64,000 bases of DNA from Archivesica marissinica (lineage: Eukaryota > Mollusca > Bivalvia > Venerida > Vesicomyidae). Below, piece after piece: positions 8,140-60,531 of this stretch. The stretch is from assembly GCA_014843695.1 (NCBI GenBank), contig CM026401.1, positions 46,637,477 to 46,701,476 on the forward strand. The letters are read 5' to 3'. Within the stretch, counting starts at the first letter, position 1. The number at the start of each line of letters is the position of its first letter. The position numbers and the translations under genes were made by a program. The notes under the pieces were generated by a model that did not search any database, was not told the origin of the DNA, and saw nothing but the letters and a program-made list of their open reading frames with translations.

Positions 8140-8316
8140 TCAACTTGAAACGTCAAAATGAGCTATACCTTCTCTACCTAATAACCTTTCATCATCCGCA
8201 TCCCTACCCTCGGGCTGCTGTAACTCCCTCATCTCCCGTCTACGTCTCCACCACGGCATGATAATAAGATCGTTGTAGAGCGCCATCCCTATCACCAGTA
8301 GGAAGAATCCTGCGAC
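8140..8316 (-). CDS. SLC35F6: SLC35F6 coding exon 8 (last)
   Basis: Starts in phase 0 after acceptor CACTTCAG and encodes VAGFFLLVIGMALYNDLI (last membrane helix), a basic stretch WWRRRREM and the acidic DDERLLG sorting-like tail, ending in TGA at 8142-8140. The acceptor plus first codons are the first of five 80-bp copies extending upstream in the intron to about 8702. Confidence 0.95.
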   Translation of the reverse strand, partial: VAGFFLLVIGMALYNDLIIMPWWRRRREMRELQQPEGRDADDERLLGREGIAHFDVSS

Positions 8317-11300
8317 CTGAAGTGAATATTTAGGGTAGTGTAACCTACTGTAAACAGAATCCGTGCAGTCTAAATAATGATAATGAATCCTGCGACCTGA
8401 AGTGAACATTTAGGGTAGTGTAACCTACTGTAAACAGAATCTGTGCAGTCTAAATAATGATAATGAATCCTGCGACCTGAAGTGAACATTTAGGGTAGTG
8501 TAACCTACTGTAAACAGAATCCGTGCAGTCTAAATAATGATAATGAATCCTGCGACCTGAAGTGAACATTTAGGGTAGTGTAACCTACTGTAAACAGAAT
8601 CCGTGTAGTCTAAGTAATGATAATGAATCCTGCGACCTGAAGTGAACATTTAGGGTAGTGTAACCTACTGTAAACAGAATCCGTGTAGTCTAAATAATGA
8701 TAGGGTAGTGTAACCTATAAGCTGTAAGTGAAGATTTAGTATAGTATAACCTACTGTAAAGTTGATTCATACAAGCTGACCATGAAGAATTAGTGTTGAC
8801 TGAATCTTACATCTGTAACTACTATAAGGGTTACGACCCAGACTACAACTTACCTGTAACAGGAAGTCCTCCAACTGGAAGGGAGATCAGATAACTGCCA
8901 TGGTTACGGCCCAGATTACAACGTACCTGTAGAAGGAAGTCCTCCAACTGGAAGGGAGATCAGATCACTGCCACGGTTACGAACCAGATTACAACGTACC
9001 TGTAGAAGGAAGTCCTCCAACTGGAAGGGTTGCCAGATCACTGCCATGGTTACGACCCAGATTACAACGTACCTGTAGAAGGAAGTCCTCCAACTGGAAG
9101 GGTTGCCAGATCACTGCCACAGTTACGACCCAGATTACAACGTACCTGTAGAAGGAAGTCCTCCAACTGGAAGGGTTGCCAGATCAACGCCAAGGTTACG
9201 ACCCAGATGACAAGCGTGCGAACACTGTCGAGCACCATTCTAGTTGTTGCACTAAGCTCCTTCGTCACACTGATACCGGCAAAGTTGAAGAATGCTATAC
9301 TCATTATATTACCTGCAGTGTTCATAGATCAAAAGAAAAGAACAATATGTTATTTGCACACATATATACAACGTACAATCTGACTGAATATAGTACTAAA
9401 GTAATTTACACTTCATTCAAAAGAGCTATCTGCCAACGGGTGCCAATGCTGACAATTTATGACTTTGAAAAAGGTCAACACGTAACCTGCCAATCACGAC
9501 TAAAGTCGGTTTTGCAAACAGCATAGAGCAGATCAAACAGCACAAATGTGCCGTATAATATACTCGCCGGTACCCATGTCATACACTCACTGGTACCTGC
9601 ATCATATACTCACTGGTACCCGCATCATATACTCACTGGTACCCGTATCATATACTCACTGGTACCTGCATCATATACTCACTGGTACCTGTATCATATA
9701 CTCACTGGTACCTGCATCATATACTCACTGGTACCTGTATCATATACTCACTGGTACCTGCATCATATACTCACTGGTACCTGCATCATATACTCACTGG
9801 TACCCGCATCATATACTCACTGGTACCCGCATCATATACTCACTGGTACCTGTATCATATACTCACTGGTACCTGCATCATATACTCACTGGTACCTGTA
9901 TCATATACTCACTGGTACCCACCGGTACCCGTATCATATACTCACTGGTACCCACCGGTACCAGTATCATATACTCACTGGTACCCACCGGTACCCGTAT
10001 CATATACTCACTGGTACCCGCATCATATACTCACTGGTACCCGTATCATATACTCACTGGTACCCGTATCATATACTCACTGGTAACCGTATCATATACT
10101 CACTGGTACCCACCAGTAACCATATCATATACTCACTGGTACCCACCGGTACCCGTATCATATACTCACTGGTACCCACCGGTACCCGCATCATATATTC
10201 ACTGGTACCCAACGGTACCCGTATCATATACTCACTGGTACCCATATCATATACTCTCACTGGTACCCATATCATATACTCACCGGCTGTGGCCGCAATG
10301 ATTCTCCAATTATTCCCCATCTGAACGAAAGCATCTTTAACATTTTCCAGCTTGTGATCTGCTGTATTACTGAAGGTTCCGGCATCAATATAACCAAATG
10401 GTATCAACAGCAATCCCAGAATAATAGCACCAAAAAATCCTACAATATACCAAAATATACCACAATACACCACAATACACCACAATATACCACAATACAC
10501 CATTAGTTTATACAAATTTATGTTTATACAAATTTATGAAGTTGTGATAGCGCATTCGCTACAGGTGCGAATGGTCCGGAGTTAGTTCGCGCCCAGCTGT
10601 ATTCGTTACAAATGTGTCCTTAGGCAAGGCATTTAAAGTCCACGTTGTCTCTTCTCTCTCCCTTGTTGCGATGTATTCCATCAGGAATGAGGTCCCGAGA
10701 GTGATTAATATAAGTTGTAAGAACTTGTTTTTTGCAATCGAGCTAAAATAAATGTGTATACATTCAAAAAAAAATAATTCCGGAAATGTCTTTGGATGGT
10801 GAAGCTACAAATTAACAATAATCAACATGAATCTCCAGAATCATTCAGAATCCACTCAGTTAGTTAATGACAAAAAAAACACCTGTGTTTACTGTTGTGT
10901 ATGTATGTATGTACGCTCCATTAATGTCAAACCCCTTGCGAGGACCTAGATATGTTTTCGTGGGCAGGCTTAGCCGACCTAAGTGGTTAACCAGTACTAA
11001 GCCATGTGTGTGAGGTGTCTTGCTCAATGACACTACATACGTGGCCTGACCGAGTATCGAACCCGGGGACCATTCGATTCCAAATCCGACGCTCTACCAC
11101 TGGAACACGGATGCCACACATTTGTTTCATGCAAAAACAAACAATAGGGTCGATCGGTAGGAATTTTTGTTTTGATTTTTCTCCTGGATACAGAAAAATA
11201 TGAAAAAACGAAATTTTGATGTTTTTGTTTGTAAATATCATAAAAAAAATTCAGGGTCAGGGCCTAATTTTTTTTTTAATATTTGCCTAATATATTGACA

Positions 11301-14300
11301 ATGTGAACAATTATATAATGTGTTTGATATCAACATCAGCTTAATGCTACAGTATTAAGATTCTAATTATGTACCTTCCCAGCCGACAGCAGCCAGTGGT
11401 TGTACATTGAATCTTCCAACAAACTTTTCTTCATATACCATCTGTACAGCTGCAATCACCTGGGCCATGATGATCAACAAATCCCCTGCAATAGACACAT
11501 TTCTGTGTAATATACATCATCCCCTAAACTGTACAGGTAATATACACCAACCACTGTAATATACACCAACCCCTAAACTATGACATGTAATATACACCAA
11601 CCACTGTAATATACACCAACCCCTATAATATACACCAACCCCTGTAATATACACCAACCCCTGTAATATACACCAACCCCTATAATATACACCAACCCCT
11701 GTAATATACACCAACCCCTATAATATACACCAACCCCTGTAATATACACCAACCCCTGTAATATACACCAACCCCTGTAATATACACCAACCCCTATAAT
11801 ATACACCAACCCCTATAATATACACCAACCCCTATAATATACACCAACCCCTATAATATACACCAACCCATATATAATATACACCAACCCCTGTAATATA
11901 CACCAACCCCTGTAATATACACCAACCACTGTAATATACACCAACCACTGTAATATACACCAACCCCTATAATATACACCAACCACTGTAATATACACCA
12001 ACCACTGTAATAAACACCAACCCCTAAACTATGACATGTAATTTTTACACCATCCCCTAAACTATGACCTGTAATATACACCATCCCCTAAACTATGTGC
12101 TGCAATATACACCATCCCCTAAACTATGTGCTGCAATATACACCATCCCCTAAACTATGACCTGTAATATACACCATCCCCTAAACTATGTGCTGCAATA
12201 TACACCATCCCCTATACTATGACATGTAATATACACCAACCACTGTAATATACGCCATCCCCTAAACTATGACCTGTAATATACACCAACCACTGTAATA
12301 TACACCATCCCCTAAACTATGACATGTAATATACACCATCCCCTAAACGATGACATGTAATATACACCATCCCCTAAACTATGACATGTAATATACACCA
12401 TCCCCTAAACTATGCACTGTAATATACACCATCCCCTAAACTATGACATGTAATATACACCATCCCTAAACTATGCCCTGTAATACATACCATCCCCTAA
12501 ACTATGACATGTAATAAACACCAACCCCTAAACTATGACATGTAATATACACCATCCCCTAAACTATGACATGTAATATATACACCATCCCCTAAACTAT
12601 GACATGTAATATACACCATCCCCTAAACTATGCACTGTAATATACACCATCCCCTAAACTATGCACTGTAATATACACCATCCCCCTAAACTATGCACTG
12701 TAATATACACCATCCCCTAAACTATGACATGTAATATACACCATCCCCTAAACTATGACATGTAATATACACCATCCCCTAAACTATGCCCTGTAATACA
12801 TACCATCCCCTAAACTATGACATGTAATAAACACCAACCCCTAAACTATGACCTGTAATATACACCATCCCCTAAACTATGACATGTAATATACACCATC
12901 CCCTAAACTATGACCTGTAATACATACCAACACCTAAACTATGACCTGTAATACATACCAACCCCTAAACTATGACCTGTAATACATATCATCCCCTAAA
13001 CTATGACATGTAATAAACACCAACCCCTAAACTATGACCTGTAATATACACCATCCCCTAAACTATGACCTGTAATACATACCAACCCCTAAACAATGAC
13101 CTGTAATACATATCATCCCCTAAACTATGACATGTAATAAACACCAACCCCTAAACTATGACCTGTAATATACACCATCCCCTAAACTATAATATGTAAT
13201 ATACACCAACCCCTAAACTATGCCATGTAATATACACCAACCCCTAAACTATGACATGTAATATACACCATCCCCTAAACTATGACCTGTAATATACACC
13301 ATACCCTAAACTATGACCTGTAATATACACCATCCCCTAAACTATGACATGTAATATACACCATCCCCTAAACTATGCCCTGTAATACATACCATCCCCT
13401 AAACTATGACATGTAATAAACACCAACCCCTAAACTATGACCTGTAATATACACCATCCCCTAAACTATGACATGTAATATACACCATCCCCTAAACTAT
13501 GACCTGTAATACATACCAACACCTAAACTATGACCTGTAATACATACCAACCCCTAAACTATGACCTGTAATACATATCATCCCCTAAACTATGACCTGT
13601 AATACATACCAACCCCTAAACTATGACCTGTAATACATATCATCCCCTAAACTATGACCTGTAATACATACCAACCCCTAAACTATGACCTGTAATACAT
13701 ATCATCCCCTAAACTATGACCTGTAATACATACCAACCCCTAAACTATGACCTGTAATACATATCATCCCCTAAACTATGACCTGTAATACATACCAACC
13801 CCTAAACTATGACCTGTAATACATATCATCCCCTAAACTATGACCTGTAATACATACCAACCCCTAAACTATGACCTGTAATACATATCATCCCCTAAAC
13901 TATGACCTGTAATACATACCAACCCCTAAACTATGACCTGTAATACATATCATCCCCTAAACTATGACCTGTAATACATACCAACCCCTAAACTATGACC
14001 TGTAATACATATCATCCCCTAAACTATGACATGTAATAAACACCAACCCCTAAACTATGACCTGTAATATACACCATCCCCTAAACTATAATATGTAATA
14101 TACACCAACCCCTAAACTATGCCATGTAATATACACCAACCCCTAAACTATGACATGTAATATACACCATCCCCTAAACTATGACCTGTAATATACACCA
14201 TACCCTAAACTATGACCTGTAATATACACCATCCCCTAAACTATGACATGTAATATACACCATCCCCTAAACTATGACATATAATATACACCAACCCCTA

Positions 14301-17300
14301 AACTATGACCTGTTATATACACCATCCCCTAAACTATGACATGTAATATACACAAGCACCTAAACTATGCGCTGCAATATACACCATCCCCTAAACTATG
14401 CCCTGTAATATACACCATCCCCTAAACTATGACATGTAATATACACCAACCCCTAAACTATGACATGTAATATACACCATCCCCTAAACTATGCCCTGTA
14501 ATATACACCATCCCCTAAACTATGACATGTAATATACACCATCCCCTAAACTATGCCCTGTAATATACACCATCCCCTAAACGATGACATGTAATATACA
14601 CCATCCCCTAAACTATGACATGTCATATACACCATCCCCTAAACTATGACATGTAATATACACCAACCACTGTAATATACACCATCCCCTAAACTATGCC
14701 CTGTAATATACACCAACCCCTAAACTATGACATGTAATATACACCATCCCCTAAACTATGACATGTAATATACACCATCCCCTAAACTATGCCCTGTAAT
14801 ATACACCAACCCCTAAACTATGACATGTAATATACACCAACCACTGTAATATACACCATCCCCTAAACTATGCCCTGTAATATACACCAACCCCTAAACT
14901 ATGCCCTGTAATATACACCAACCCCTAAACTATGACATGTAATATACACCATCCCCTAAACTATGACATGTAATATACACCATCCCCTAAACTATGCCCT
15001 GTAATATACACCAACCCCTAAACTATGACATGTAATATACACCAACCACTGTAATATACACCATCCCCTAAACTATGCCCTGTAATATACACCAACCCCT
15101 AAACTATGCCCTGTAATATACACCAACCCCTAAACTATGACATGTAATATACACCATCCCCTAAACTATGACATGTAATATACACCATCCCCTAAACTAT
15201 GCCCTGTAATATACACCAACCTGTAATATACACCATCCCCTAAACTATGCCCTGTAATATACACCAACCCCTAAACTATGACATGTAATATACACCATCC
15301 CCTAAACTATGACATGTAATATACACCATCCCCTAAACTATGCCCTGTAATATACACCAACCACTGTAATATACACCATCCCCTAAACTATGCCCTGTAA
15401 TATACACCATCCCCTAAACTATGCCCTGTAATATACACCAACCCCTAAACTATGACATGTAATATACACCATCCCCTAAACTATGACATGTAATATACAC
15501 CATCCCCTAAACTATGCCCTGTAATATACACCAACCCCTAAACTATGACATGTAATATACACCATCCCCTAAACTATGACATGTAATATACACCATCCCC
15601 TAAACTATGACCTGTAATATACACCAACCACTGTAATATACACCATCCCCTAAACTATGCCCTGTAATATACACCAACCCCTAAACTATGACATGTAATA
15701 TACACCATCCCCTAAACAATGACATGTAATATACACCATCCCCTAAACTATGCCCTGTAATATACACCAACCACTGTAATATACACCATCCCCTAAACTA
15801 TGCCCTGTAATATACACCAACCCCTAAACTATGCCCTGTAATATACACCAACCACTGTAATATACACCATCCCCTAAACTATGCCCTGTAATATACACCA
15901 TCCCCTAAACTATGCCCTGTAATATACACCAACCCCTAAACTATGCCCTGTAATATACACCATACCCTAAACTATGCCCTGTAATATACACCAACCCCTA
16001 AACTATGACATGTAATATACACCATCCCCTAAACTATGACATGTAATATACACCATCCCCTAAACTATGCCCTGTAATATACACCAACTACTGTAATATA
16101 CACCATCCCCTAAACTATGCCCTGTAATATACACCAACCCCTAAACTATGCCCTGTAATATACACCAACCACTGTAATATACACCATCCCCTAAAATATG
16201 CCCTGTAATATACACCATCCCCTAAACTATGCCCTGTAATATACACCAACCCCTAAACTATGCCCTGTAATATACACCATCCCCTAAACTATGCCCTGTA
16301 ATATACACCAACCCCTAAACTATGACATGTAATATACACCATCCCCTAAACTATGACATGTAATATACACCATCCCCTAAACTATGCCCTGTAACATACA
16401 CCATCCCCTAAACTATGACATGTAATATACACCAACCACTGTAATATACACCAACCCCTAAACTATGCCCTGTAATATACACCATCCCCTAAACTATGAC
16501 ATGTAATATACACCATCCCCTAAACTATGACACGTAATATACACCATCCCCGAAACAATGACATGTAATATACACCATCCCCGAAACAATGACATGTAAT
16601 ATACACCAACCCCGAAACAATGACATGTAATATACACCATCCCCTAAACTATGATATGTAATATACACCATCCCCTAAACTATGATATGTAATATACACC
16701 ATCCCCTAAACTATGACATGTAATATACACCATCCCCCTAAACTATGAAATGTAATATACACCATCCCCTAAACAATGACATGTAATATACACCATCCCC
16801 TAAACAATGACATGTAATATACACCATCCCCTAAACTATGACATGTAATATACACCATCCCCTAAACTATGACATGTAATATACACCATCCCCCTAAACT
16901 ATGAAATGTAATATACACCATCCCCTAAACAATGACATGTAATATACACCATCCCCTAAACTATGACATGTAATATACACCATCCCCTAAACAATGACAT
17001 GTAATATACACCATCCCCCTAAACTATGACATGTAATATACACCATCCCCTAAACTATGACATGTAATATACACCATCCCCTAAACTATGATATGTAATA
17101 TACACCATCCCCTAAACAATGACATGTAATATACACCATCCCCTAAACTATGACATGTAATATACACCATCCCCTAAAATATGACATGTAATATACACCA
17201 TCCCCTAAACTATGATATGTAATATACACCACCCCTTAAACTATGACCTGTAATATACACCATCCCCTAAACTATGTGCTGCAATATACACCACCCCCTA

Positions 17301-20300
17301 AACTATGACCTGTAATATACACCATCCCCTAAACTATGTGCTGCAATATTCACCATCCCCTAAACTATGTGCTGCAATATACACAATCCCCTAAACTATG
17401 AGATGTAATATACACAATCCTACTTGTGTGAATATACACAATCCCCTAAACTATGACATGTAATATACACCATCCTGTTTTCCTAAACTATGACCTGTAC
17501 AGATGATTGATTACCTACCAGCAATGTACACATGATTGATTACCTACCAGCAATGTACACGTGATTGATTACCTACCAGCAATGTACATGTGATTGATTA
17601 CCTACCAGCAATGTACACGTGATTGATTACCTACCAGCAATGTACACATGATTGATTACCTACCAGCAATGTACAGATGATTGATTACCTACCAGCAATG
17701 TACAGGTGATTGATTACATACCAGCAATGTACAGATGATTGATTACCTACTAGCAATGTACACGTGATTGATTACCTACCAGCAATGTACACATGACTGA
17801 TTACCTACCAGCAATGTACACATGACTGATTACCTACCAGCAATGTACAGAGGATTGATTACCTACCAGCAATGTACAGATGATCGATTACCTACCAGCA
17901 ATGTACAGATGATTGATTACCTACCAGCACTGTACACGCGACTGATTACCTACCAGCACTGTACACGCGACTGATTACCTACCAGCACTGTACACGTGAT
18001 TAATTACCTACCAGCAATGTACACGCGACTGATTACCTACCAGCAATGTACACATGATCGATTACCTACCAGCAATGTACACACGACTGATTACCTACCA
18101 GCATTGTACACGTGACTGATTACCTACCAGCAATGTACACATGATTGATTACCTACCAGCAATGTACAGATGATTGATTACCTACCAGCAATGTACACAT
18201 GATTGTTTATCTACCAGCAATGTACACATGATTGATTACCTACCAGCACTGTACACGCGACTGATTACCTACCAGCAATGTACACATGATTGATTATCTA
18301 CCAGCACTGTACAGGTGATTGATTACCTACCAGCAATGTACAGATGATTGATTACCTACCAGCAATGTACAGATGATTGATTACCTACCAGCAATGTACA
18401 GATGATTGATTACCTACCAGCAATGTACAGATGATTGATTACCTACCAGCAATGTACAGATGATTGATTACCTACCAGCAATGTACACATGATTGATTAC
18501 CTACCAGCAATGTACAGATGATTGATTACCTACCAGCAATGTACAGATGATTGATTACCTACCAGCAATGTACAGATGATTGATTACCTACCAGCAATGT
18601 ACAGATGATTGATTACCTACCAGCAATGTACAGATGATTGATTACCTACCAGCAATGTACAGATGATTGATTACCTACCAGCAATGTACAGATGATTGAT
18701 TACCTACCAGCAATGTACAGATGATTGATTACCTACCAGCAATGTACAGATGATTGATTACCTACCAGCAATGTACACGCGACTGATTACCTACTAGCAA
18801 TGTACACGCGACTGATTACCTACCAGCAATGTACACGCGACTGATTACCTACCAGCACTGTACAGATGATTGATTACCTACCAGCACTGTACAGATGATT
18901 GATTACCTACCAGCACTGTACAGATGATTGATTACCTACCAGCAATGTACAGATGATTGATTACCTACCAGCAATGTACAGATGATTGATTACCTACCAG
19001 CAATGTACGATGATTGATTACCTACCAGCAATGTACAGATGATTGATTACCTACCAGCAATGTACTGTGTTGTGTTGTTGTTTGTTGTACAGATGATTGA
19101 TTACCTACCAGCAATGTACAGATGATTGATTACCTACCAGCAATGTACAGATGATTGATTACCTACCATGTACAGATGATTGATTCCTACCAGCAATGTA
19201 CAGATGATTGATTACCTACCAGCAATGTACAGATGATTGATTACCTACCAGCAATGTACAGATGATTGATTACCTACCAGCAATGTACAGATGATTGATT
19301 ACCTACCAGCAATGTACACGCGACTGATTACCTACTAGCAATGTACACGCGACTGATTACCTACCAGCAATGTACACGCGACTGATTACCTACCAGCACT
19401 GTACAGATGATTGATTACCTACCAGCACTGTACAGATGATTGATTACCTACCAGCACTGTACAGATGATTGATTACCTACCAGCACTGTACAGATGATTG
19501 ATTACCTACCAGCACTGTACAGATGATTGATTACCTACCAGCACTGTACAGATGATCGATTACCTACCAGCAATGATGCCGTTTGTGTTCGTGGTTGCTG
19601 CATCATGTGCCCCAAACACAATATCTGCCATTCCAACGAGCAATAGACCCACCAGCACAGCAAACATTCCAACCCACATGGGCTTCTTGATGACACGACC
19701 GAGGAACGCCACGGAGAGCAGAGCAGTGAAGATTATGACAGAACCTGATTGAGAAAACATACAAAACACACTGCTGCTGCGAAATCATGACATAACAGAT
19801 GTAGAGGATATTTGTGTGAGATAAGATTTTATTTCATAGAGTCTTCACTGAAATTTGTATTTCCACTAACACCATTCAAATTAAAAAGTGGAAGTCGTGA
19901 TAGCGTTCGCGTCAGGTGCGAAAGGTCAGGAGTTCGAGCCCTGCTGAAGCCACTACGATTCTGCCCTTAGGCAAGGCATTTATTTAAATTCCATGTTGCC
20001 TCTTCTCTCTCCCCCGTGGTGATGGATTCCATCAGGAATGAGGTCTCGAGAGTGATTAATATAAGTTGTAAGAACTTGTTTTCGCAATCGAGCTAAAATA
20101 AATTTGTAGAGAAAAAAAAAGTTCACTAAAACATAAAACACGATGCAAGAAGTTTGTAAATCGCGATGCAAATGAAGAAGTTGTGATAGGTTGGTTATTG
20201 TGACAGGTTGATTATTGTGACAGGTTGGTTATTGTGACAGGCTGGTTATTGTGATAGGTTGGTTATTGTGATAGGTTGGTTATTGTGATAGGTTGGTTAT

Positions 20301-23300
20301 TGTGATAGGTTGGTTATTGTGATAGGTTGGTTATTGTGACAGGTTGGTTATTGTGATAGGTTGGTTATTGTGACAGGTTGGTTATTGTGACAGGCTGATT
20401 ATTGTGACAGGTTGGTTATTGTGACAGGTTGGTTATTGTGATAGGTTGGTTATTGTGACAGGTTGGTTATTGTGACAGTCTGATTATTGTGACAGGCTGG
20501 TTATTGTGACAGGCTGATTATTGTGACAGGCTGATTATTGTGACAGGTTGGTTATTGTGACAGGCTGATTATCTTACATTATTTGGATACCATTATTTAT
20601 CAATATGCCCGGGTTAATTGGGGTGCCACATCAAGAAATATATTAATCATTTTACTTTTAACCGTTTCCCTCATAGAAGTGCCTCTTGACGCCATTACCA
20701 ATACAACATACATTGACAATGTAGTAGTCAAACCAATGTTCATAATAAAGACCAGAATCTCATGTAGTCCCAGTAATATCTATGGAGGTGGGATAGATAT
20801 GGCGACTACTTATCCACTGCATGATAGCTAAATGGCTGTCGTTTGTATGGAGATATAATAGTATATTAACCTAAATCTCTATGTACTCCCAGTAATATCT
20901 ATGGAGGTGGGATAGATATGGCGACTACTTATCCACTGCTTGATAGCTAAATGGCTGTCGTTTGTATGGAGATATAATAGTATATTAACCTAAATCTCTA
21001 TGTACTCCCAGTAATATCTATGGAGGTGGGATATATATGGCGACTACTTATCCACTGCATGCTAGCTAAATGGCTGTCGTTTGTATGGAGATATAATAGT
21101 ATATTAACTTAAATCTCTATGAAGGAAAGGGTTATGGAGGTGGTGAGTGGCTCTTTTACATACCAGATGCATAGCACCGATACATTACACCTTGGTTTAT
21201 AGTCCCCATCAGAAATACTACTAATATTATTAGGATCAGACGGAGGATCGAACCTGTGATCCCTGGATTCGTAGTCCAACCATTTGGGTGAGTTGACCTA
21301 CAAACAATAATAGGAAATGTTGAAGGGCTGTAAAACCACAAACAGCAATCACATACCTCTCAACATCTGGAAGCTAGAGGCGTATGTTAGGTTCAGACCT
21401 ATGTACATGATGGACGTCCCGCACATGTCCAGCATGGCGGCAGGAAGAAATATGAGCGGGTTAAATTTCCTGGGTTGCTCCCCCTCGGCCACCTGCTCTC
21501 TGCGCTTACATAATTTTATTATGTAGTATGTTATCAAACACGCAAATTCTCCAATAAACATCCCCACCGCCTGAAAGTATACAGAACATGTAGTATAGAG
21601 AACAGGTAGTATAGAGAACAGGTAGTATAGAGAACAGGTAGTATAGAGAACAGGTAGTATACAGAACAGGTAGTATAGAGAACAGGTAGTATAGAGAACA
21701 GGTAGTATAGAACAGGTAATATACAGAACATGTAGTATAGAGAACAGGTAGTATAGAGAACAGGTAGTATAGAGAACAGGTAGTATAGAACAGGTAGTAT
21801 AGAGAACAGGTAGTATAGATAACAGGTAGTATACAGAACAGTTAGTATACAGAACAGGTAGTATACAGAACAGGTAGTATACAGAACAGGTAGTATAGAG
21901 AACAGGTAGTATACAGAACAGTTAGTATAGAGAACAGGTAGTATAGAACAGGTAGTATAGAGAACAGGTAGTATAGAACAGTAGTATAGAGAACAGGTAG
22001 TATAGAGAACAGGTAGTATAGAGACGGTAGTATACAGAACAGTTAGTATACAGAACAGGTAGTATAGAGAACAGGTAGTATAGAGAACAGGTAGTATAGA
22101 ACAGGTAGTATAGAACAGGTAATATACAGAACATGTAGTATAGAGAACAGGTAGTATAGAGAACAGGTAGTATAGAGAACAGGTAGTATAGAACAGGTAG
22201 TATAGAGAACAGGTAGTATAGAGAACAGGTAATATAGAGAACAGGTAGTATAGAGAACGAACAGTTAGTATACAGAACAGGTAGTATACAGAACAGGTAG
22301 TATAGAGAACAGGTAGTATAGAGAACAGGTAGTATACAGAACAGTTAGTATACAGAACAGGTAGTATAGAGAACAGGTAGTATAGAGAACAGGTAGTATA
22401 GAGAACAGTTAGTATACAGAACAGGTAGTATACAGAACAGGTAGTATACAGAACAGGTAGTATACAGAACAGGTAGTATAGAGAACAGGTAGTATACAGA
22501 ACAGGTAGTATACAGAACAGGTAGTATACAGAACAGGTAGTATACAGAACAGGTAGTATACAGAACAGGTAGTATACAGAACAGGTAGTATACAGAACAG
22601 GTAGTATAGAACAGGTAGTATACCCAACAGGTAGTATACCGAACAGGTAGTATAGAGAACAGGTAGTATACAGAACAGGTACATGTTACACATAGACATT
22701 TAGGCTAAGATACTACTGAAATGGGGCCAGCCAATTATGACTTGTGAGACACATCTCGAGATGCCAGTACTTCCTTGCAGGCCTTGTGCCAGACTGGTAA
22801 GGCAATCAGTAACAATTATTCAACTAGCTGGCGGCTCACCAAGCGGCCATATCAGGATGAACCCATGACAAGGTTTGATCCTTCGACCATAAATTTAATA
22901 ACGTCATAAATGATTTCATAAATTCCGTCACCGACAGCTTGAGTTCGAACACATCATTGACAACATTTCAACATGCAGCAGCTAGGTACCAGTACCACAC
23001 ATGCAAAGAAGTGAGGTATAAAATGTTGTATTCCACTGCTTTCAATCAGTGGAATAACCCATTTGATTTCACTTATAAATTTCCATATTTCATTGGAAAG
23101 CATAAAATAGTAAATGTTTATTCCCCTTAAAAAGTCTATTAAGCAGCCAACCTGTCTTAAGCAGCCATGCAAGGGAATCACCAAAAGTGGCTGCTTAGCA
23201 CAGGTGGCTGCTTAATAGAGGTTATGTGTATAATAAAGTACCATATTGGGAATCTGAAAACTGGCTGCTTAATGCAGGTTGGCTGCTTAATAGAGGTAAC

Positions 23301-24359
23301 CACTAACACAGGTTTGACTGTATTCCCAAACAAACCTGAAAGAATGGATGATCAAACGGCCGGCTATTACCATCTGAACCTATTGCTTTCTGTCTGTCGG
23401 CCCACCTACAATAATACAAGAGCACCATTGAACTTAAATGTAAATAAAAAAAATAATATAAATTTAAATCAAAATTATATACAGCAGAATAGAGAAGACA
23501 ATTCCAGCCACTCCATGCAATACTGTAATTTACAGTTTCTGTCGTTGACGTATCCAAATATAAACTGATACCATTTTTTGCTATGAATCCCTATTTCGTC
23601 TTTTATCATTGCTATATGTATCTCTATTTGATATACCGTATATAATTTCTTTTCTCTCTTTTAGAAAATTTATAAAATGAATAAAGACAGAAACATTTTA
23701 TTTAACCCTTTCCCTCATAGAAGCACCTATTGATGCCATTACCAATACGACATACATTGACAATGTAGTAGCCAAACCAATGTTCATAATAAAGGCCAGA
23801 ATCTCATGTAGTCCCAGTAAAATCTATGGAGGTGGGATAGATATGTCGACTACTTATCCACTGCATGATAGCTAAATGACTGTCGTTTGTATGGAGATAC
23901 AATAGTATATTAACCTAAATCTCTATGAAGGGTTAATTTAATAAGGGAAATGTTGATGTACAGTCAAACCTGTTTTAAGCAGCCAGCCAAGGGAATCACA
24001 GCAAATAGCTGCTTTTTTTTATACAAGTTTATTTTAGCTCGATTGCAAAACAAGTTATTTCAACTTATATAAATCACTCTCGAGACCTCATTCCTGATGG
24101 AATCAATCGCCACAAGGGAGAGAGAAGAGGCAATAGCTGCTTAGCACAGGTGGCTGCTTAATAGAGGTAAAATGATAATGAAACATATTGGGAAACTGGC
24201 TACTTAATACAGGTAAAGTGCTTAATGGAGGTGATCACTAATCACTAACACAGGTTTGACTGTAAACTAAAACATGACTTACTTTGTAGACAAAGTATTG
24301 ATGGAGCCAGTTATAACCATAACAATGGCCAATGCTATCTGGTACGTTGTCCACGCCAT
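8140..24359 (-). CDS. SLC35F6: SLC35F6-like membrane transporter, eight coding exons, complete
   Basis: Eight exons with canonical GT-AG borders join without frame error into 382 aa, against 371 aa in man: 24359-24283, 23405-23336, 21570-21357, 19744-19568, 11485-11375, 10439-10284, 9312-9146 and 8316-8140. It is a multi-pass protein of the drug/metabolite transporter fold (hydrophobic segments near residues 7-23, 52-68, 88-108, 122-136, 142-165, 181-200, 218-236, 270-320, 325-343). Family signatures seen are QAVGMFIGEFAC-type (exon 2/3 junction), SSFQMLRG, GDLLIIMAQVIAAVQMV and GISVTKELSATTRMVLDS. The C-terminal tail holds DDERLLG, a [DE]xxxLL lysosomal sorting signal like that of the vertebrate protein. 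Vertebrate SLC35F6 is a lysosomal/mitochondria-associated protein; its substrate is unsettled. The start codon has A at -3 and G at +4. Intron sizes are inflated by tandem arrays that overlap many splice sites. Confidence 0.96.
8305..8705. repeat. 80-bp tandem array, 5 copies, covering the exon 8 acceptor
   Basis: The motif TGCGACCTGAAGTGAA occurs at 8311, 8391, 8471, 8551 and 8631, exactly 80 bp apart. On the transcript strand each copy reads CACTTCAGGTCGCAGGATTC, i.e. acceptor plus the first 12 exon bases. Only the 8311 copy continues into the exon; in the decoys the frame reaches TAG after eight codons. Confidence 0.95.
8824..9200. repeat. 73-bp tandem array, 5 copies, covering the exon 7 donor
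   Basis: Copies of the exon 7 tail plus donor (transcript strand CTTCCTTCTACAGGTACGTT) have their exon/intron borders at 9146 (real), 9073, 9000, 8927 and 8854, each 73 bp apart. The copy farthest from the exon is most diverged (TTACCTGTAACAGG). Confidence 0.95.
9146..9312 (-). CDS. SLC35F6: SLC35F6 coding exon 7
   Basis: 167 nt, phase 1 in and phase 0 out, acceptor ACACTGCAG, donor CAG/GTACGT. Encodes the most conserved part of the protein: FFNFAGISVTKELSATTR, then MVLDSVRTLVIWVV and the QPFQLEDFLLQ turn before the last helix. Confidence 0.96.
9560..10283. repeat. 22-bp tandem array (some 33-bp units), about 31 copies, built from the exon 6 donor
   Basis: Plus-strand unit CATATACTCACTGGTACCCG; on the transcript strand ACCAGTGAGTATATGATAC. 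The true donor reads GCCG/GTGAGTATATGATA and is the first unit of the array. Every copy therefore keeps a GTGAGT donor core. Because the unit has few stops, plus-strand frames of about 250 codons appear; they are not genes. Confidence 0.96.
10284..10439 (-). CDS. SLC35F6: SLC35F6 coding exon 6
   Basis: 156 nt, phase 1 both sides. Encodes FFGAIILGLLLIPFGYI (membrane helix), then the lumenal loop AGTFSNTADHKLENVKDAF, as in vertebrate SLC35F6. Its donor seeds the 22-bp array below it and a 10-bp array abuts its acceptor. Confidence 0.95.
10441..10502. repeat. 10-bp tandem array, 6 copies, abutting the exon 6 acceptor
   Basis: ACAATATACC / ACAATACACC repeated from the base next to the acceptor (transcript strand GGTGTATTGT... 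ending TATTGTAG). Confidence 0.9.
10540..10778 (+). mobile_element. tRNA-derived SINE, family C, near complete
   Basis: Head GTGATAGCGCATTCGCTACA with degraded B box, body CCTTAGGCAAGGCATTTAAA, CATCAGGAATGAGGTC, GAGAGTGATTAATATAAGTT, then an A-rich end. Same consensus at 19885, and inverted at 24016, 46515 and 52425. Located in SLC35F6 intron 5. Confidence 0.88.
10905..11112 (-). mobile_element. tRNA-derived SINE, family A, minus orientation
   Basis: Inverse of the copies at 31875 and 46577. Read on the minus strand: GTTCCAGTGGTAGAGCGTCG (A box), GGTTCGATACTC (B box), then AGTGTCATTGAGCAAGACAC, GCCTGCCCACG and CTCGCAAGGGGTTTGACATT. In SLC35F6 intron 5. Confidence 0.9.
11375..11485 (-). CDS. 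SLC35F6: SLC35F6 coding exon 5
   Basis: 111 nt, phase 1 both sides. Encodes DLLIIMAQVIAAVQMVYEEK and FVGRFNVQPLAAVGWE, almost colinear with the vertebrate sequence. Acceptor CTATTGCAG/GGG, donor GAAG/GTACAT. Confidence 0.96.
11505..17482. repeat. 6-kb array of 31-bp (and 18-bp) units, roughly 190 copies
   Basis: Main unit AATATACACCATCCCCTAAA + CTATGACATGT, mixed with an 18-bp short unit (AATATACACCAACCACTGT) near the left edge and sporadically elsewhere. Higher-order structure is visible: a 62-bp dimer alternating cataccaac / catatcatc from about 13540 to 14030, and a segment at 13135-13330 repeated near 14035-14240. On the transcript strand most units read TATATTACAG/GTCATAG, resembling the nearby acceptor CTATTGCAG. 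Confidence 0.96.
17485..19567. repeat. 2.1-kb array of 29-bp units, about 70 copies, built from the exon 4 donor
   Basis: Plus-strand unit GATTGATTACCTACCAGCAA + TGTACAGAT; on the transcript strand ATTGCTGGTAGGTAATCAAT. The exon 4 border reads ATTGCTG/GTAGGTAATC, so the real donor is the first unit. Subfamilies differ by CACGCGACTG or GCACTG variants; the block at 18775-18895 recurs at 19316-19440. A non-repeat insertion, TGTGTTGTGTTGTTGTTTGT, interrupts at 19064-19085. Confidence 0.97.
19568..19744 (-). CDS. SLC35F6: SLC35F6 coding exon 4
   Basis: 177 nt, phase 1 both sides. Encodes SVIIFTALLSVAFLGRVIKK, then PMWVGMFAVLVGLLLVGMAD (a long helix) and a loop IVFGAHDAATTNTNG. Donor GCTG/GTAGGT is identical to the unit of the adjacent array. 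Confidence 0.96.
19885..20118 (+). mobile_element. tRNA-derived SINE, family C, best preserved copy
   Basis: Head GTGATAGCGTTCGCGTCAGG with B box GAGTTCGAGCCCTGC, body CCTTAGGCAAGGCATTTATT, ATGGATTCCATCAGGAATGA, GTGATTAATATAAGTTGTAA, ending in an A run at 20109-20118. In SLC35F6 intron 3. Confidence 0.9.
20183..20573. repeat. 17-bp tandem array, about 22 copies
   Basis: Unit TATTGTGATAGGTTGGT with C/T alternation (gacagg/gatagg). Interior of SLC35F6 intron 3; it does not touch a splice site. Confidence 0.95.
20658..21135. mobile_element. TTAA-ended MITE (family G) with an internal ~120-bp triplication
   Basis: Left end TTAACCGTTTCCCTCATAGA; right end CTCTATGAAGGAAAGGGTTA. The segment with AGTAATATCTATGGAGGTGG to AATAGTATATTAACCTAAAT is present three times (about 20760-21118) against once in the copy at 23702-23936. 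No coding capacity. Confidence 0.82.
21225..21295 (-). mobile_element. Head fragment of SINE family B
   Basis: GATCGAACCTGTGATCCCTG and GATTCGTAGTCCAACCATTT correspond to the inverted tRNA-like head of family B; the body is missing. Confidence 0.7.
21357..21570 (-). CDS. SLC35F6: SLC35F6 coding exon 3
   Basis: 214 nt, phase 0 in, phase 1 out. Encodes AVGMFIGEFACLITYYIIKL (helix 2), a charged loop CKRREQVAEGEQPRK, NPLIFLPAAMLDMCGTSIMY (helix 3) and LTYASSFQMLR. Acceptor TACTTTCAG is the edge of the 15-bp array. Confidence 0.97.
21573..22682. repeat. 15-bp tandem array (1.1 kb), abutting the exon 3 acceptor
   Basis: Units GAACAGGTAGTATAG / GAACAGGTAGTATAC, about 75 copies. On the transcript strand CTATACTACCTGTTC, a pyrimidine-rich repeat with no AG anywhere between 22704 and the acceptor AG at 21572-21571. 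Confidence 0.96.
22683..23140. other. Unassigned part of SLC35F6 intron 2
   Basis: No repeat boundary or coding signal recognised; ordinary AT-rich intronic sequence with a decayed tRNA-like TTTGATCCTTCGACC at about 22875. Confidence 0.4.
23144..23322. mobile_element. MITE with TACAGTCAAACC ends, copy a, 13 nt from the exon 2 donor
   Basis: Right terminus GGTTTGACTGTA is intact at 23322; the left terminus is lost. Body AAGCAGCCATGCAAGGGAAT and TGGCTGCTTAATAGAGGT is shared with 23959-24264 and 52194-52340. Between its end and the last base of exon 2 (23336) are only 13 intron bases. Confidence 0.85.
23336..23405 (-). CDS. SLC35F6: SLC35F6 coding exon 2
   Basis: 70 nt, entering in phase 2 (completes the split lysine codon) and leaving in phase 0. 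Encodes WADRQKAIGSDGNSRPFD then HPFFQ, matching the W-A-D...HPF-Q loop of vertebrate SLC35F6. Acceptor ATTGTAG, donor CAG/GTTTGT. Too short for an open-frame scan to find on its own; recognised by family alignment and perfect phase. Confidence 0.93.
23702..23936. mobile_element. TTAA-ended MITE, family G, single-unit copy
   Basis: TTAACCCTTTCCCTCATAGA at the left and CTCTATGAAGGGTTAA at the right, 235 bp; nearly identical to 20658-21135 apart from the triplication there. In SLC35F6 intron 1. Confidence 0.85.
23959..24264. mobile_element. MITE with TACAGTCAAACC ends, copy b, 18 nt from the exon 1 donor, interrupted by a SINE
   Basis: Perfect inverted ends TACAGTCAAACC (23959) and GGTTTGACTGTA (to 24264), beginning and ending in TA as in TA-targeting elements. 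A truncated family C SINE is inserted at about 24016-24131 with an 11-bp target duplication AATAGCTGCTT. Eighteen intron bases separate its end from exon 1 (24283). Confidence 0.88.
24016..24131 (-). mobile_element. Truncated SINE family C nested in a MITE
   Basis: Minus-oriented: T-run and TTTATTTTAGCTCGATTGC, then ATCACTCTCGAGACCTCATT and GGGAGAGAGAAGAGGCAATA. Flanked by AATAGCTGCTT on both sides, a clean retroposition footprint. The tRNA-like head is missing (5' truncation). Confidence 0.85.
24283..24359 (-). CDS. SLC35F6: SLC35F6 coding exon 1
   Basis: ATG at 24359-24357 in context CAGCATGGCG; encodes MAWTTYQIALAIVMVITGSI then NTLST and two bases of a split lysine codon, before donor AAA/GTAAGT. 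Vertebrate SLC35F6 also begins MAWT.Y and runs into ITGSINTLSAK-type sequence, which fixes the start. Confidence 0.96.
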
Positions 24360-25462: not shown

Positions 25463-25534
25463 GGCTCGTTGGTCTAGGGGAATGATTCTCGCTTAGGGTG
25501 CGAGAGGTCCCGGGTTCGAATCCCGGACGAGCCC
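25463..25534 (+). tRNA. tRNA-Pro (anticodon AGG)
   Basis: 72 nt that fold into a canonical cloverleaf: acceptor stem GGCTCGT/ACGAGCC with discriminator C, D arm with A box TGGTCTAGGGGAATG, anticodon stem CTCGC/GCGAG around loop TTAGGGT (anticodon AGG), T arm CCCGG/CCGGG around TTCGAAT with B box GGTTCGAATCC. CCA is not encoded. A short T run (ACTTTTTA) follows as a Pol III terminator. No 3' SINE body follows, so it looks like a functional gene and not a SINE head. Confidence 0.95.
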
Positions 25535-46800: not shown

Positions 46801-49057
46801 GATACCTCATTCCTGATGGAACCCAACGACATGAGGGTGATGAATAGGCAATATGGAATTTAAATGCCTTTGCTAAGTGGAACAATCGTAACTGCTCCAG
46901 CAGGGCTCGAAGTCTGGACCTTTCATACCTGAAGCGAACGTGTTACCACTGCACTTGTGTGTGGAAAGTCGTGAAGCAATGTTGATTAATTCCTTCTCGC
47001 CTGTTTTCATGAAACAGATTTTATTTAATGAATAAAATGAACCTGTGTTTGGGTATACCAGGACTCGTCTAAAGTCATTTTTGGGAGGACCATTACAACA
47101 TTTTAATACTAGTGCTTTACAATGGCTAGCGTATGTTGCTGGGCAATAATTTTGTGTGGCACTCGAGGGGGCTAAAGTCAGGGGTCCCTAGAATAAGTCC
47201 TGTATACAATTACTGCTTAACGTGTTTGCGAGCCCGGTGGCCCCTTACTCTTCATACATACCTAATTATGGATACCATAAATTTAACACCAGTATTTGAA
47301 TATTCGGTAAAAAATATAATATTTGCAAAAATGAAATAAATTTACTCTCATAAATCCGATACGTTGCTTTCTTTTACAATTTGAAGCCATCATAAAACCT
47401 TCCAATACAAAAGAAATTGCCCCAGGATGTTTGAATAAACAATGTTGTCGCATCCATGGCAAGTGTTAATTGACATGTAATTTGATAATTACTGTAATTA
47501 CAGTAGGGTCCGCCTCCGTGGTCGAGTGGTTAAGGTCGCTGACTTGTATACCACTGTAACCTATCATCACTGATGGTCACGGGTTCAAGCCCAGCTCAGG
47601 CCGTGTCTCATTTATATGAAAAAGTTGGCAGTTTCTTACGGAGGTTGGTGCACCCAAGTACTGGTTAACCGCTGGAGCCTGCCCAGGAAAGGTGTTGTTA
47701 AGTAAACTGCCCGCCGGCGATATAGCCCAAAATGGTGCTGATGCAGGCGTAAAACCCGAAATATAACATAACATAACATAATTACAGTAGGTGCTAAGGT
47801 GTTTAATTATGATGTCAAGACAAGCTACACCATCCACCCCATGTTTCTTAAATTAACTGCTCAATATTACCCAAAAGTACTACCATTATATAAAATACAA
47901 TTTTTATGATGTCCTTAAAAACGCGATGAGAATAAGAAATTGGTAGGTGTAATCTATGCAAATTGGATTTGACATATTCGGGTACATCAATCTGAATAAT
48001 CATTTGAAAAACAAACACACTTCAACGGAAAGCAGTTCAAGTGACACCAGCTTCATTTGTGAAAACGTCCATAAATGTACAGTGGCCGATAACAATAACT
48101 GAATGAGTCGTCGTCCTATTTGCATGGCCTGACAGGAAGATGACGTTTAGTAAAGTAGCTTAATTTGGCATTTTTTATAAGAGTTTGAGTGATTTTGAGT
48201 TTTTAATAGAATTATATCGAATATTCGAATACCATACCAACCGAATATTCGAATAGTAAAATCGCTATTGGTTGCCAACCCTAATTGTAATTAAGCACTC
48301 ACTTTGACGCCATAATCTTGTAATAGAAATTCACTATCTATGTGTAGAAATGAAATACTAGACAAAGGAATTGGCTGTCTGATGCGAGCTGTTAGTGTCA
48401 CTCTAAATCCACAGCAAATAAACGAGTAATTGTAATTGTCGTGTTTTACGTTTATTTATCGTCGCTACCAGTTGCCCATATGAGCGACACCTCCAGAAGA
48501 TATTAGTCATTTTAGATTTTGGAGGATAGTTGCATGATACAGACAGAGACCCATTCCAGAGTCTTCTCTGGTTCTTTTACGTGCATGGTGTAAAGCACCG
48601 ACACAAGACCTGATTTAAAGTCCCACATGAAAGACTTCATTTTTATTAGGGTTAGACGGTTGATCGCCAGCGTGTTGCCACTGGACTACAGATCCGTAAA
48701 TGTAGTAGAATTCTAATGTGTATTAACCCATTTCATTCTGGATACATTCAAAGGCTTTTGCAAACAACATAGATCCAGATCAGCCGCAGCGTGACGCCGC
48801 ATGCTGATCAGGATCTATGTTGTTTGCTGCATAGCAAAGTGTCTTGGCAAGATCATCTGAATAGTAAACAGCATAGATCCTGATCTGGCTCTATGTTCTT
48901 TGCAGATACCGTTTGAACGGTATCCAGAATGAAATGGGTTAAATAAACAAGTTTGTGTGTATATTTCAGGTTACTGTAGTTTGTGTGTATATTTCAGGTT
49001 ACTGTTCTTAAAGCTGTGGGTATAGAGACTATTATTGGCTGGAAGTTGGACAATTGA
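34893..49057 (+). CDS. EIF5A: eukaryotic translation initiation factor 5A, four coding exons, complete
   Basis: Coding exons 34902-35063, 37147-37251, 46170-46307 and 48998-49057 join into 154 aa, the length of human eIF5A. The first two exons hold the SH3-like N-domain with the hypusine loop [13 protein letters not shown]; Lys49 is the residue modified by deoxyhypusine synthase and hydroxylase. Then [20 protein letters not shown] and THNMNVPNV; exon 3 and 4 give the OB-fold C-domain. eIF5A binds the ribosomal E site and relieves stalling at polyproline and other motifs, and helps termination. The acceptor at 34892 (CTGTTTACAG) shows a 5' UTR exon exists further upstream. Intron 2 starts with a GC donor (CAG/GCATGA), and exon 4 has two tandem acceptors. 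The C-terminal 19 residues ([19 protein letters not shown]) are more divergent than the rest. Confidence 0.96.
34902..35063 (+). CDS. EIF5A: EIF5A coding exon 1
   Basis: 54 codons from ATG in context TTCAAAATGG: acidic start [14 protein letters not shown], then [20 protein letters not shown] and [17 protein letters not shown] with the hypusine lysine. Donor AAG/GTACTC, phase 0. Confidence 0.97.
35064..36194. other. EIF5A intron 1, left part
   Basis: Only a fragment resembling family E (CAAAACCAAATTGGTCGGAG at 35110) is recognisable; otherwise AT-rich intron sequence. Confidence 0.45.
36195..36872. repeat. 34-bp tandem array, about 20 copies
   Basis: Unit AGATTTTATTGGTCACTAGT + CCTACATGGCAAGT. 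Left copies carry CCTACATGGCAAG, right copies TTCTACAGGGCGAG, so two blocks were homogenised separately. In EIF5A intron 1, not touching splice sites. Confidence 0.95.
37147..37251 (+). CDS. EIF5A: EIF5A coding exon 2
   Basis: 35 codons, phase 0 both sides: [35 protein letters not shown]. Acceptor TTTTTCACAACAG. The donor reads CAG/GCATGA, a GC-AG intron; +5 is G as in other GC donors. Confidence 0.95.
37252..37473. other. Start of EIF5A intron 2 and possible left end of a transposon
   Basis: Begins GCATGAGATTTTTCCGTTTT immediately at the exon border. An imperfect inverse (GCATGGGAGTTAATAGGG) occurs at 44877-44860, so the whole 37252-44877 block might be one element. No target duplication seen. 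Confidence 0.35.
37762..38821. other. Probable intron of the transposase-like relic
   Basis: AT-rich, no domains; bounded by a GTACGT donor near 37651 and the TATTACAG acceptor at 38822, but phases do not match, so an exon (the rest of the zinc finger) is missing or unrecognised. Confidence 0.35.
39943..40617 (+). pseudogene. Core domain of the transposase-like relic
   Basis: 225 codons open. Conserved-looking features: [10 protein letters not shown] (candidate first catalytic Asp), [16 protein letters not shown], and [17 protein letters not shown] (Cys/His pair typical of the insertion before the last catalytic residue in some RNase H-like transposases). Frame is lost at the end and resumes at 40701. 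Confidence 0.55.
40701..41360 (+). pseudogene. C-terminal helical part of the transposase-like relic
   Basis: 220 codons: [47 protein letters not shown], ending in a basic [20 protein letters not shown] coil. An A-run frameshift at about 41350 separates it from [20 protein letters not shown], which leads to a stop at 41446. Confidence 0.55.
41462..41725 (+). pseudogene. Tudor/PWWP-like terminal module of the relic
   Basis: 87 codons: [20 protein letters not shown], then [20 protein letters not shown]. Aromatic, acidic beta-barrel-like composition resembles Royal-family (Tudor/chromo) folds; assignment by pattern only. Confidence 0.4.
41803..42069 (-). pseudogene. hAT transposase fragment (BED-type, near N-terminus)
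   Basis: [40 protein letters not shown] is the well-known stretch after the BED finger of ZBED-like hAT transposases. Only about 88 codons remain. Opposite strand to the neighbouring relics. Confidence 0.85.
42073..44433 (+). pseudogene. hAT-type transposase relic, second family, broken by a 92-bp triplication
   Basis: Reading pieces: 42100-42285 and 42319-42510 joined across an in-frame TAG at 42283; [17 protein letters not shown] (first Asp) and [20 protein letters not shown] (second Asp); frame changes at about 42955 and 43243; then a 396-codon frame with [20 protein letters not shown] and [20 protein letters not shown], the hAT C-terminal signature with the last Glu. Ends in a basic coil. 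A 92-bp block is present three times (42512-42787), adding 184 bp and shifting the frame. Lies in EIF5A intron 2. Confidence 0.8.
42512..42787. repeat. 92-bp tandem triplication within the hAT relic
   Basis: TTCTGGTCAGCTACTACTCA recurs at 42512, 42604 and 42696. Copies are almost identical, so the event is recent relative to the decay of the gene. Confidence 0.95.
44434..45185. other. EIF5A intron 2, between hAT relic and 40-bp array
   Basis: 44835-44880 has a self-complementary GGGGGAGGACCCCCGGACCC motif typical of element ends. 44985-45130 resembles a tRNA-derived SINE (GTGGATGAGCGGTCGTTGTC, ATTATTTCATGTGAGGAAGC, GCTATCCAGGTGACTTGCGG) also found, inverted, at 7850-7990. Confidence 0.45.
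45213..45985. repeat. 40-bp tandem array, about 19 copies
   Basis: Unit AGTATGCAAAGCAACATGCT + TCGTACCATGCTCGTACAAT. The left ten copies are almost identical; the right part has deletions (TTCGTACCATG missing at 45755). Minus strand has no stop in any frame, giving three overlapping frames of 238-296 codons that are not genes. Confidence 0.96.
46170..46307 (+). CDS. EIF5A: EIF5A coding exon 3
   Basis: 46 codons, phase 0 both sides: [48 protein letters not shown]-fold C-domain. Acceptor TCATTTACAG, donor AGA/GTAAGT. Confidence 0.95.
46515..46965 (-). mobile_element. SINE family C split by SINE family A
   Basis: Minus-oriented family C (TTTGCTCTATTTCGAAACAA to TTATATTAAT, then ATCACGTCTCGATACCTCAT to CTCCAGCAGGGCTCGAAGTC) is interrupted at 46573-46787 by a plus-oriented family A. 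ATTAAT flanks the insertion on both sides. Confidence 0.85.
46577..46787 (+). mobile_element. tRNA-derived SINE, family A, complete
   Basis: GTGGCGTCTGTGGTCCAGTG, GGTAGAGCGTCGGATTTGGA, CCCGGGTTCGATACACGG (B box), AGTGTCATTGAGCAAGGCAC, GGTTAACCACTTAGGTCGGC, CCCCGCAAGGGGTTTGACAT. In EIF5A intron 3, nested in family C. Confidence 0.92.
47508..47778 (+). mobile_element. tRNA-derived SINE, family D, complete with target duplication
   Basis: Head GTCCGCCTCCGTGGTCGAGT, GGTTAAGGTCGCTGAC and GGTCACGGGTTCAAGCCCAG with a long variable-arm region (class II tRNA-like, Leu/Ser type). 3' part GGCGATATAGCCCAAAATGG, TGCTGATGCAGGCGTAAAAC, ending in (ATAAC)n. The 13-bp TAATTACAGTAGG is present on both sides (47495-47507 and 47779-47791). 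Confidence 0.92.
47792..48439. other. EIF5A intron 3, unassigned
   Basis: AT-rich; a TCGAATATTCGAATA palindromic phrase at 48219-48256 is the only striking feature. Confidence 0.4.
48440..48699 (-). mobile_element. tRNA-derived SINE, family B, minus orientation
   Basis: TTTTACGTTTATTTATCGTC left, GGTTCTTTTACGTGCATGGT, head at right with CCACTGGACTACAGATCCGT; some of the B-box side is deleted. In EIF5A intron 3. Confidence 0.85.
48723..48942. mobile_element. 220-bp TTAA-ended MITE with 23-bp terminal repeats, 27 nt from the EIF5A exon 4 acceptor
   Basis: TTAACCCATTTCATTCTGGA + TAC at the left and its perfect inverse at the right. Inside is a second hairpin, AACAACATAGATCCAGATCA against TGATCAGGATCTATGTTGTT. 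It ends 27 nt before the first acceptor AG of exon 4. Confidence 0.92.
48951..49006. repeat. 28-bp duplication of the EIF5A exon 4 acceptor
   Basis: GTTTGTGTGTATATTTCAGG + TTACTGTA occurs at 48951-48978 and 48979-49006 (last base differs). Both copies hold TTTCAG/GTTACTGT. Confidence 0.96.
48998..49057 (+). CDS. EIF5A: EIF5A coding exon 4 (last)
   Basis: Second acceptor (AG at 48996-48997) gives [19 protein letters not shown] and TGA, the length expected for eIF5A (compare the C-terminal TVL.A..EE..I..K of other animals). The first acceptor (48968-48969) would give [13 protein letters not shown] and a stop. Confidence 0.92.
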   Translation, partial: VTVLKAVGIETIIGWKLDN

Positions 49058-57000: not shown

Positions 57001-57160
57001 TCTCATTCGTACACGTATTACTTACATGCACACATCGATTGGACCACATGTTATAACATTACATTTCCATCCTCCCCCACCCCCTCTGTTATTGTGGTCA
57101 GACGGGGCGATCGAACCTGCGATCACTGAATTCACAGTCCAAAGTGTTGAACCACTTCGA
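54037..57160 (-). mobile_element. SINE family B copy with a 2.8-kb internal tandem expansion
   Basis: The tail side (GTGTGTTTTAGCGTTAATTT, CCTCCTGAATAGATTGG, TTTTGGAGAATAATGCAATG) is at 54037-54130; the head side (GTCAGACGGGGCGATCGAAC, CTGCGATCACTGAATTC, AAAGTGTTGAACCACT) is at 57095-57160. Between them the SINE segment CAGAGACCCATTCCAGA...GGTTCTTTT has become about 100 copies of a 24- to 30-bp unit. GTTCTTCTACATGCACGGTC at 56933 rejoins the SINE body. Confidence 0.85.
54131..56938. repeat. 24- to 30-bp array (AGACCCATTGTACAGGTTCT), about 100 copies
   Basis: Unit GAGACCCATTGTACAGGTTC + TTTAGACC; variants TTTGACTGA (24 bp) and TTTAGAGACTGA (30 bp). A block of several hundred bp around 54290-54660 recurs at 54780-55150. 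Minus frames such as NLYNGSQSK repeats are array artefacts. Confidence 0.96.
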
Positions 57161-58300: not shown

Positions 58301-58588
58301 TGTGTGTTTTACGTTTATTTATCGTCGCTACCGGTTGCCCATATGAGCGACGCCTCCTGAAGAGATTAGTTTTTTAGATTTTGGAGGATAGTGCTTGATA
58401 CAGACAGAGACCCATTCCAGAATATCCTCTGGTTCTTTTACGTGCACGGTGTAAAGCACCGACACGAGACCTCGGTTTAACGTCCCATTTGAAAGACTGT
58501 TACTTGTATTAGGGTGAGACGGGAGATCGAACCTGCGATCCCTGGAATACCAGTCCAGCGTGTTACCACTGGACTACATATCCGTCTG
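58301..58588 (-). mobile_element. tRNA-derived SINE, family B, best preserved minus copy
   Basis: TTTTACGTTTATTTATCGTC, GCTACCGGTTGCCCATATGA, GCGACGCCTCCTGAAGAGAT, GGTTCTTTTACGTGCACGGT, CGGTTTAACGTCCCATTTGA, head GATCGAACCTGCGATCCCTG and GTGTTACCACTGGACTACAT. Confidence 0.92.
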
Positions 58589-60272: not shown

Positions 60273-60531
60273 TCATTGAACTCTACTGAGAAAGTCTGCT
60301 AGAACATTTTGAGTCCCTTTGATATGTTTAATGGTCAGATTAAATTCTGAGAGACACAGTGCCCATCTTAAGAGGCGTTGATTGGACGTTTTCGACCTAC
60401 TTAACCATACAAGGGGATTATGATCTGAATTAATTATTGTTTTGCTTGTGCTGACATATATGCGAAAATGTTCGATACCGGCCACTATAGCTAATAATTC
60501 CTTTTCTATTGTAGAGTAGTTTCTCCTCGAG
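60273..60531 (-). pseudogene. RNase H domain fragment of the retroelement
   Basis: Enters at NYSTIEKELLAIV, typical of the RNase H start in gypsy pol, then SDHNPLVWL, RLLRWALCLSEF, and the closing NVLADFLSR motif, followed by a stop. The sequence before it is joined directly to the RT N-terminus by the deletion. Confidence 0.88.

Follow-up and report, generated by a model that had tools for sequence, protein, structure and literature searches.

Minisatellites crossing splice junctions of SLC35F6 and of other genes in the clam Archivesica marissinica

The window analysed here, a stretch of 64,000 nucleotides of contig CM026401.1 (positions 46,637,477 to 46,701,476, assembly GCA_014843695.1) from the bivalve Archivesica marissinica, includes the genes SLC35F6, on the minus strand, and eIF5A, on the plus strand. 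An earlier note on this DNA had claimed that tandem arrays sit on or against about half of the SLC35F6 splice junctions, and we report here that arrays whose units carry the splice site together with exon bases cross junctions of SLC35F6, of eIF5A and of exons sampled elsewhere in the genome. The SLC35F6 coding region (8140..24359, minus strand; positions are those of the window) was recognised from its open frame, splice consensus, homologues and the Pfam SLC35F/EamA domains. Rebuilt from the minus strand, it comprises eight coding exons (5′ to 3′: 24359-24283, 23405-23336, 21570-21357, 19744-19568, 11485-11375, 10439-10284, 9312-9146 and 8316-8140) that join in a single open frame of 382 residues, and the protein shares 79–80 % identity with its Mercenaria and Ruditapes homologues. 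Comparison with homologues shows that, where a splice site is present in several copies, joining the exons at the exon-proximal copies keeps the frame and gives the conserved protein.

All seven of the junctions named in the earlier note were found again using Tandem Repeats Finder and the gene model, and 7 of the 14 SLC35F6 junctions lie in, or no more than 20 bp from, a tandem array (all minus strand); at the other seven coding-exon junctions, Tandem Repeats Finder on the window placed no array within 20 bp. At 3 of the 14, a minisatellite with a unit in the range of approximately 10–120 bp crosses the exon–intron boundary and includes both the splice site and exon bases, namely a unit of 80 bp present five times across the intron 7 acceptor (8305..8702, 12 exon bases in the unit), one of 73 bp present five times across the intron 7 donor (8829..9213, 68 exon bases) and one of 29 bp present 72 times across the intron 4 donor (17496..19575, approximately 8 exon bases according to Tandem Repeats Finder and 5 by a stricter match run). 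Five acceptor copies are intact in the intron 7 acceptor array, and in the intron 4 donor array the donor 9-mer occurs 63 times in exact form, the copy presumed to be used among them. Though four units had been said to contain the splice site along with a few bases of the exon, this is clear only for these three, one of which has as many as 68 exon bases, while the unit of the 23 bp array that reaches the intron 6 donor at the exon end (9553..10283, unit carrying GTGAGTAT) includes the donor and no certain exon base. The motif GTGAGT occurs 26 times within 9550-10300, the region of this array. At the intron 5 acceptor, a 10 bp array (row 10442-10502, 10429..10502 overall) comes to within 2 bp of the exon, and a looser 20 bp row starting at 10429 runs into it. 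The first of the 19 bp and 31 bp arrays of intron 4 (11506..17475) begins 20 bp off the exon 5 acceptor, and a unit present 70 times, previously given as 15 bp and measured here as 16 bp, stops 5 bp short of the intron 2 acceptor (21576..22681). The end of exon 7 (9146..9183, minus strand), within the repeated segment, encodes four extra residues absent from all six aligned homologues. As the intronic copies in the intron 7 donor array carry the same stretch, this insertion seems to predate the 73 bp array.

The pattern proved to be present in other genes too. The coding exons of eIF5A, identified by translation, Pfam and solved eIF5A relatives, are at 34903-35063, 37147-37251, 46170-46307 and 48998-49057 (plus strand), and the last acceptor is crossed by a perfect 28 bp duplication (two copies, 48950..49005, plus strand) with 8 exon bases in the unit. 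This additional case was missing from the earlier list, and it is the one eIF5A junction of six that is crossed by an array. The second eIF5A intron (37252) apparently starts with GC rather than GT (CAG/GCATGA), a weak-looking donor. The third contains hAT-like transposase reading frames at 42508-44430 (Pfam hAT dimerisation), and a 92 bp repeat with three tandem copies lies directly before the hAT-like frame.

Tandem Repeats Finder returned 74 rows for the window, and arrays span 22,457 of its 63,000 non-N bases (36 %). The SLC35F6 introns have indeed been lengthened by arrays, which make up 11,470 of their 15,071 bases (76 %), and they shrink to 4,052 bases when every array is reduced to one unit. 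Hits on junctions are therefore expected, and the idea that 7 of 14 is striking in itself was rejected. With random seeds on the collapsed SLC35F6, 1.25 of 12 arrays are expected to fall across the 14 junctions, and three clear and two ambiguous crossings were observed (P = 0.024 for four, P = 0.0035 for five). For eIF5A, one crossing was observed where the same collapsed-unit null predicts 0.09. SLC35F6 was, however, chosen for its pattern, and adjacent arrays of related sequence were counted separately. Hence, the window test alone is little proof and an independent sample of exons weighs more.

This sample consists of 42 kinase and myosin exons with 84 edges, hand-picked as internal-looking exons before the repeat scan from 130 protein-kinase and 72 myosin rows listed from the clam's own genome. 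Of 45 exons fetched (20 + 8 + 12 kinase and five myosin, the first 20 as stretches of approximately 8 kb), L053, L060 and L061, members of a degenerate kinase family whose splice sites are unclear, were dropped before the count, and the similar degenerate kinases L033 and L034 were retained. Twelve of the 30 loci that accompanied the kinase rows were viewed and left uncounted (unoriented, mostly long exons); arrays perhaps lie within approximately 20 bp of an exon edge in the uncounted L018 and L019. An edge was scored as crossed when the array unit included at least 5 exon bases, and as touched when it was crossed or within approximately 20 bp of an array. Edge positions were set by the ends of domain hits, the reading frame and a general splice-score table, not by transcripts, and nearby arrays were judged by eye.

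Arrays occupy 52,518 of the 163,980 bases in the 20 longer stretches (32 %). The first 20 kinase exons have four crossed edges out of 40, those of L041 (94 bp, four copies, 35 exon bases), L043 (113 bp, five copies, 65 exon bases), L051 (59 bp, five copies, 39 exon bases) and L039 (48 bp, two copies, 7 exon bases), the last being the weakest of the eight crossings, and in L038, L047 and L048 arrays lie no more than 9 bp from the exon edge. Seventeen more kinase exons gave three crossed edges, in L065 (55 bp, 40 exon bases) and at the acceptors of L067 (43 bp, 31 exon bases) and L071 (58 bp, 5 exon bases), with arrays within approximately 20 bp in L062 and L068. Among the five myosin exons, L074 is crossed (35 bp, approximately 15–16 exon bases) and L075 has an array approximately 8 bp away. 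In total, 8 of the 84 edges are crossed (95 % interval 4–18 %) and 14 are touched. Junction-crossing arrays are thus firmly replicated outside SLC35F6.

The 12 crossing units (three in SLC35F6, one in eIF5A and eight in the sample) contain the ends of different genes' own exons and differ in length, which upholds the view that they are unrelated and arose on the spot and that no single satellite is spreading; the same unit at many loci, be it a spreading satellite or an introner-like element, was not seen among them. The exon share of the unit ranges from 0.09 to 0.93 in these 12 cases and fits a uniform distribution (Kolmogorov–Smirnov P = 0.72, a weak test with so few cases), as it does in the eight sampled cases alone (P = 0.51). 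Junction units are longer than those of the 111 other arrays in the sample (median 56.5 versus 34 bp, P = 0.009), with no difference in copy number (P = 0.48). Large seeds have a greater chance of hitting a fixed point and, hence, junction units should be longer under random hits; a length-weighted prediction gives a mean of 73 bp, against 60 bp observed. Raw array cover is 15–22 % within 100 bp of exons and 29–40 % farther out. As a sole test it was rejected, since it measures array length, not births. In the 0–25 bp bin beside exons seven arrays were observed versus 0.95 expected, an excess that is overstated because every crossing array falls into bin 0.

The explanation that we consider probable is that duplications occur nearly anywhere, are masked by splicing when they happen to cross a junction, and then expand as intronic minisatellites. 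Short tandem duplications would arise nearly anywhere outside exons, in a genome where locally born minisatellites appear to be abundant, and would grow by slippage or unequal exchange. A first duplication across an exon edge would copy part of the exon along with the adjoining donor or acceptor. Such a duplication would be masked and presumably neutral, since the normal mRNA would still result from splicing at the exon-proximal site, and the extra copy would turn into intron; a duplication entirely within an exon would escape masking. The intronic copies would then drift and multiply, giving a longer intron and a row of spare splice sites. Arrays also begin in unrelated sequence: the 28 bp array with 100 copies at 54133-56938 begins within a copy of a short interspersed element (SINE), fragments of which flank it (54039-54151 and 57090-57156), and was born within a mobile element. 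In all ten donor-side cases, splicing at the next donor copy would lead either to a stop within the first extra unit (seven cases) or to a frameshift (three, with units of 23, 73 and 55 bp), and one upstream acceptor copy in intron 7 would likewise lead to a stop. The cell therefore presumably has to take the exon-proximal copy in most cases. Intronic copies share changes absent from the exon copy in L051 and, to a lesser degree, in L065, and in the eight other arrays compared the two copy distances are close. Only one or two cases thus hint at growth from the freed intronic copy.

Several points weigh against this explanation. The expected rate of crossing, derived solely from the 20 longer stretches, whose 115 non-redundant arrays were each collapsed to one unit, is 4.0 % of junctions crossed and 6.6 % touched, or 3.4 and 5.5 of 84. 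The eight crossings and 14 touched edges exceed these values 2.4-fold (P = 0.020) and 2.5-fold (P = 0.001), respectively, which leaves room for a cause linked to the junction itself. The crossing excess varies with the exons counted: 7/84 without L039 (P = 0.052), 8/90 with the dropped L053, L060 and L061 restored (P = 0.029), 8/78 without L033, L034 and L044 (P = 0.013) and 9/84 if L047, with a single exon base, is included (P = 0.007). With array density at the upper limit of its bootstrap range, P for crossing rises to 0.11 and, with the value obtained without L039, this makes the excess suggestive only. The predominant use of exon-proximal copies is, moreover, deduced from stops and frameshifts rather than from transcripts, and the outermost donor copy in intron 7 scores 12.7 versus 9.75 for the presumed donor. 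Both this higher-scoring donor of the 73 bp array and the 63 donor 9-mers of intron 4 compete with the exon-proximal site.

The excess is what would be expected if splice junctions were mutational hot spots, with transcription-linked breaks, R-loops or the AG/GT motif seeding duplications and driving intron growth, and the three to five crossings in SLC35F6 and the one in eIF5A, all above their expectations, point the same way. We nevertheless regard this as unlikely, as the excess loses firmness when the uncertainty of array density is taken into account, the offsets do not cluster at the splice site, junction units are longer than others in the manner of random hits, and array cover is lower, not higher, beside exons. 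The proposal in the earlier note that the junction is the shared focus of the arrays is therefore weakly supported, being favoured by the approximately 2.4-fold excess over random placement in the sample and opposed by uniform offsets, unit lengths and cover. A bolder conjecture, that junctions are approximately 2.5-fold hot spots for duplication and that repeated junction duplication is a main route by which introns lengthen, so that many introns would offer equivalent splice sites in numbers from several to dozens if 8/84 holds genome-wide, can be entertained tentatively, though we doubt it.

It is very unlikely that selection retains the spare splice sites to protect or regulate the transcript, in the manner of the donor minisatellite of human IFI6. 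Intact sites do persist, as the 63 donor 9-mers of intron 4 and the five acceptors of intron 7 attest, and the donors of the next copies in L041, L043 and L051 are identical. However, the copies are homogenised along with the entire unit, and intact sites thus require no selection; use of the next donor copy would disrupt the frame, and in L039, L047 and L074 the site has been lost from the next copy. An assembly artefact that falsely multiplied single-copy junctions could account for the identical copies in a few arrays (L041 and the 28 bp eIF5A duplication) and is hardly credible, as copies in several arrays differ by both shared and private changes and the pattern recurs at many loci with different units.

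Elsewhere in the window, a tRNA-Pro (AGG) is predicted at 25463-25534, upstream of SLC35F6, together with two further tRNAs, one of which (58511-58583) lies inside a SINE copy. The RNase H domain of a retrotransposon reverse transcriptase is at 60276-60536 on the minus strand.

If approximately one exon edge in ten does have a copied junction, the clam offers a natural experiment on splice-site choice and intron growth, and gene finders and read mappers would be affected too. How one site is picked among many equal copies is the central question raised by the SLC35F6 arrays, and the intron 4 donor array, with its exact 9-mers, is a directly testable case of that choice.

Turri et al. (1995) reportedly described a minisatellite in human IFI6 (6-16/G1P3) that provides multiple splice donors. 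According to a later account, downstream repeat units act as donors for three mRNAs (PMC4526556). In both systems, units of a tandem minisatellite placed at the edge of an exon carry splice donors; IFI6 is, however, one gene in which alternative copy use has been shown, while the clam arrays affect many genes, involve both donors and acceptors, and are known from sequence alone. In human segmental duplications, PMC2812944 describes internal tandem repeats at exon–intron boundaries, with 27 intron modifications and units of approximately 30 bp averaging four copies. These too are boundary minisatellites that alter gene structure, but they concern recent paralogues with paralogue-variable repeat number, while those in the clam lie in conserved genes at approximately one edge in ten. 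An RdRp gene of potato gained an intron via tandem duplication across a boundary (PMC4974935). There, as here, the duplication crosses an intron–exon boundary and carries splice signals along; the potato intron is new, whereas in the clam existing introns are lengthened. Among the matches listed in the open literature, a scope that mostly leaves out subscription papers, there was none that counts tandem-array crossings of splice junctions genome-wide. Single cases were known before and the new part is the frequency, junction-crossing repeats in the clam seeming to be far commoner than those earlier single cases.

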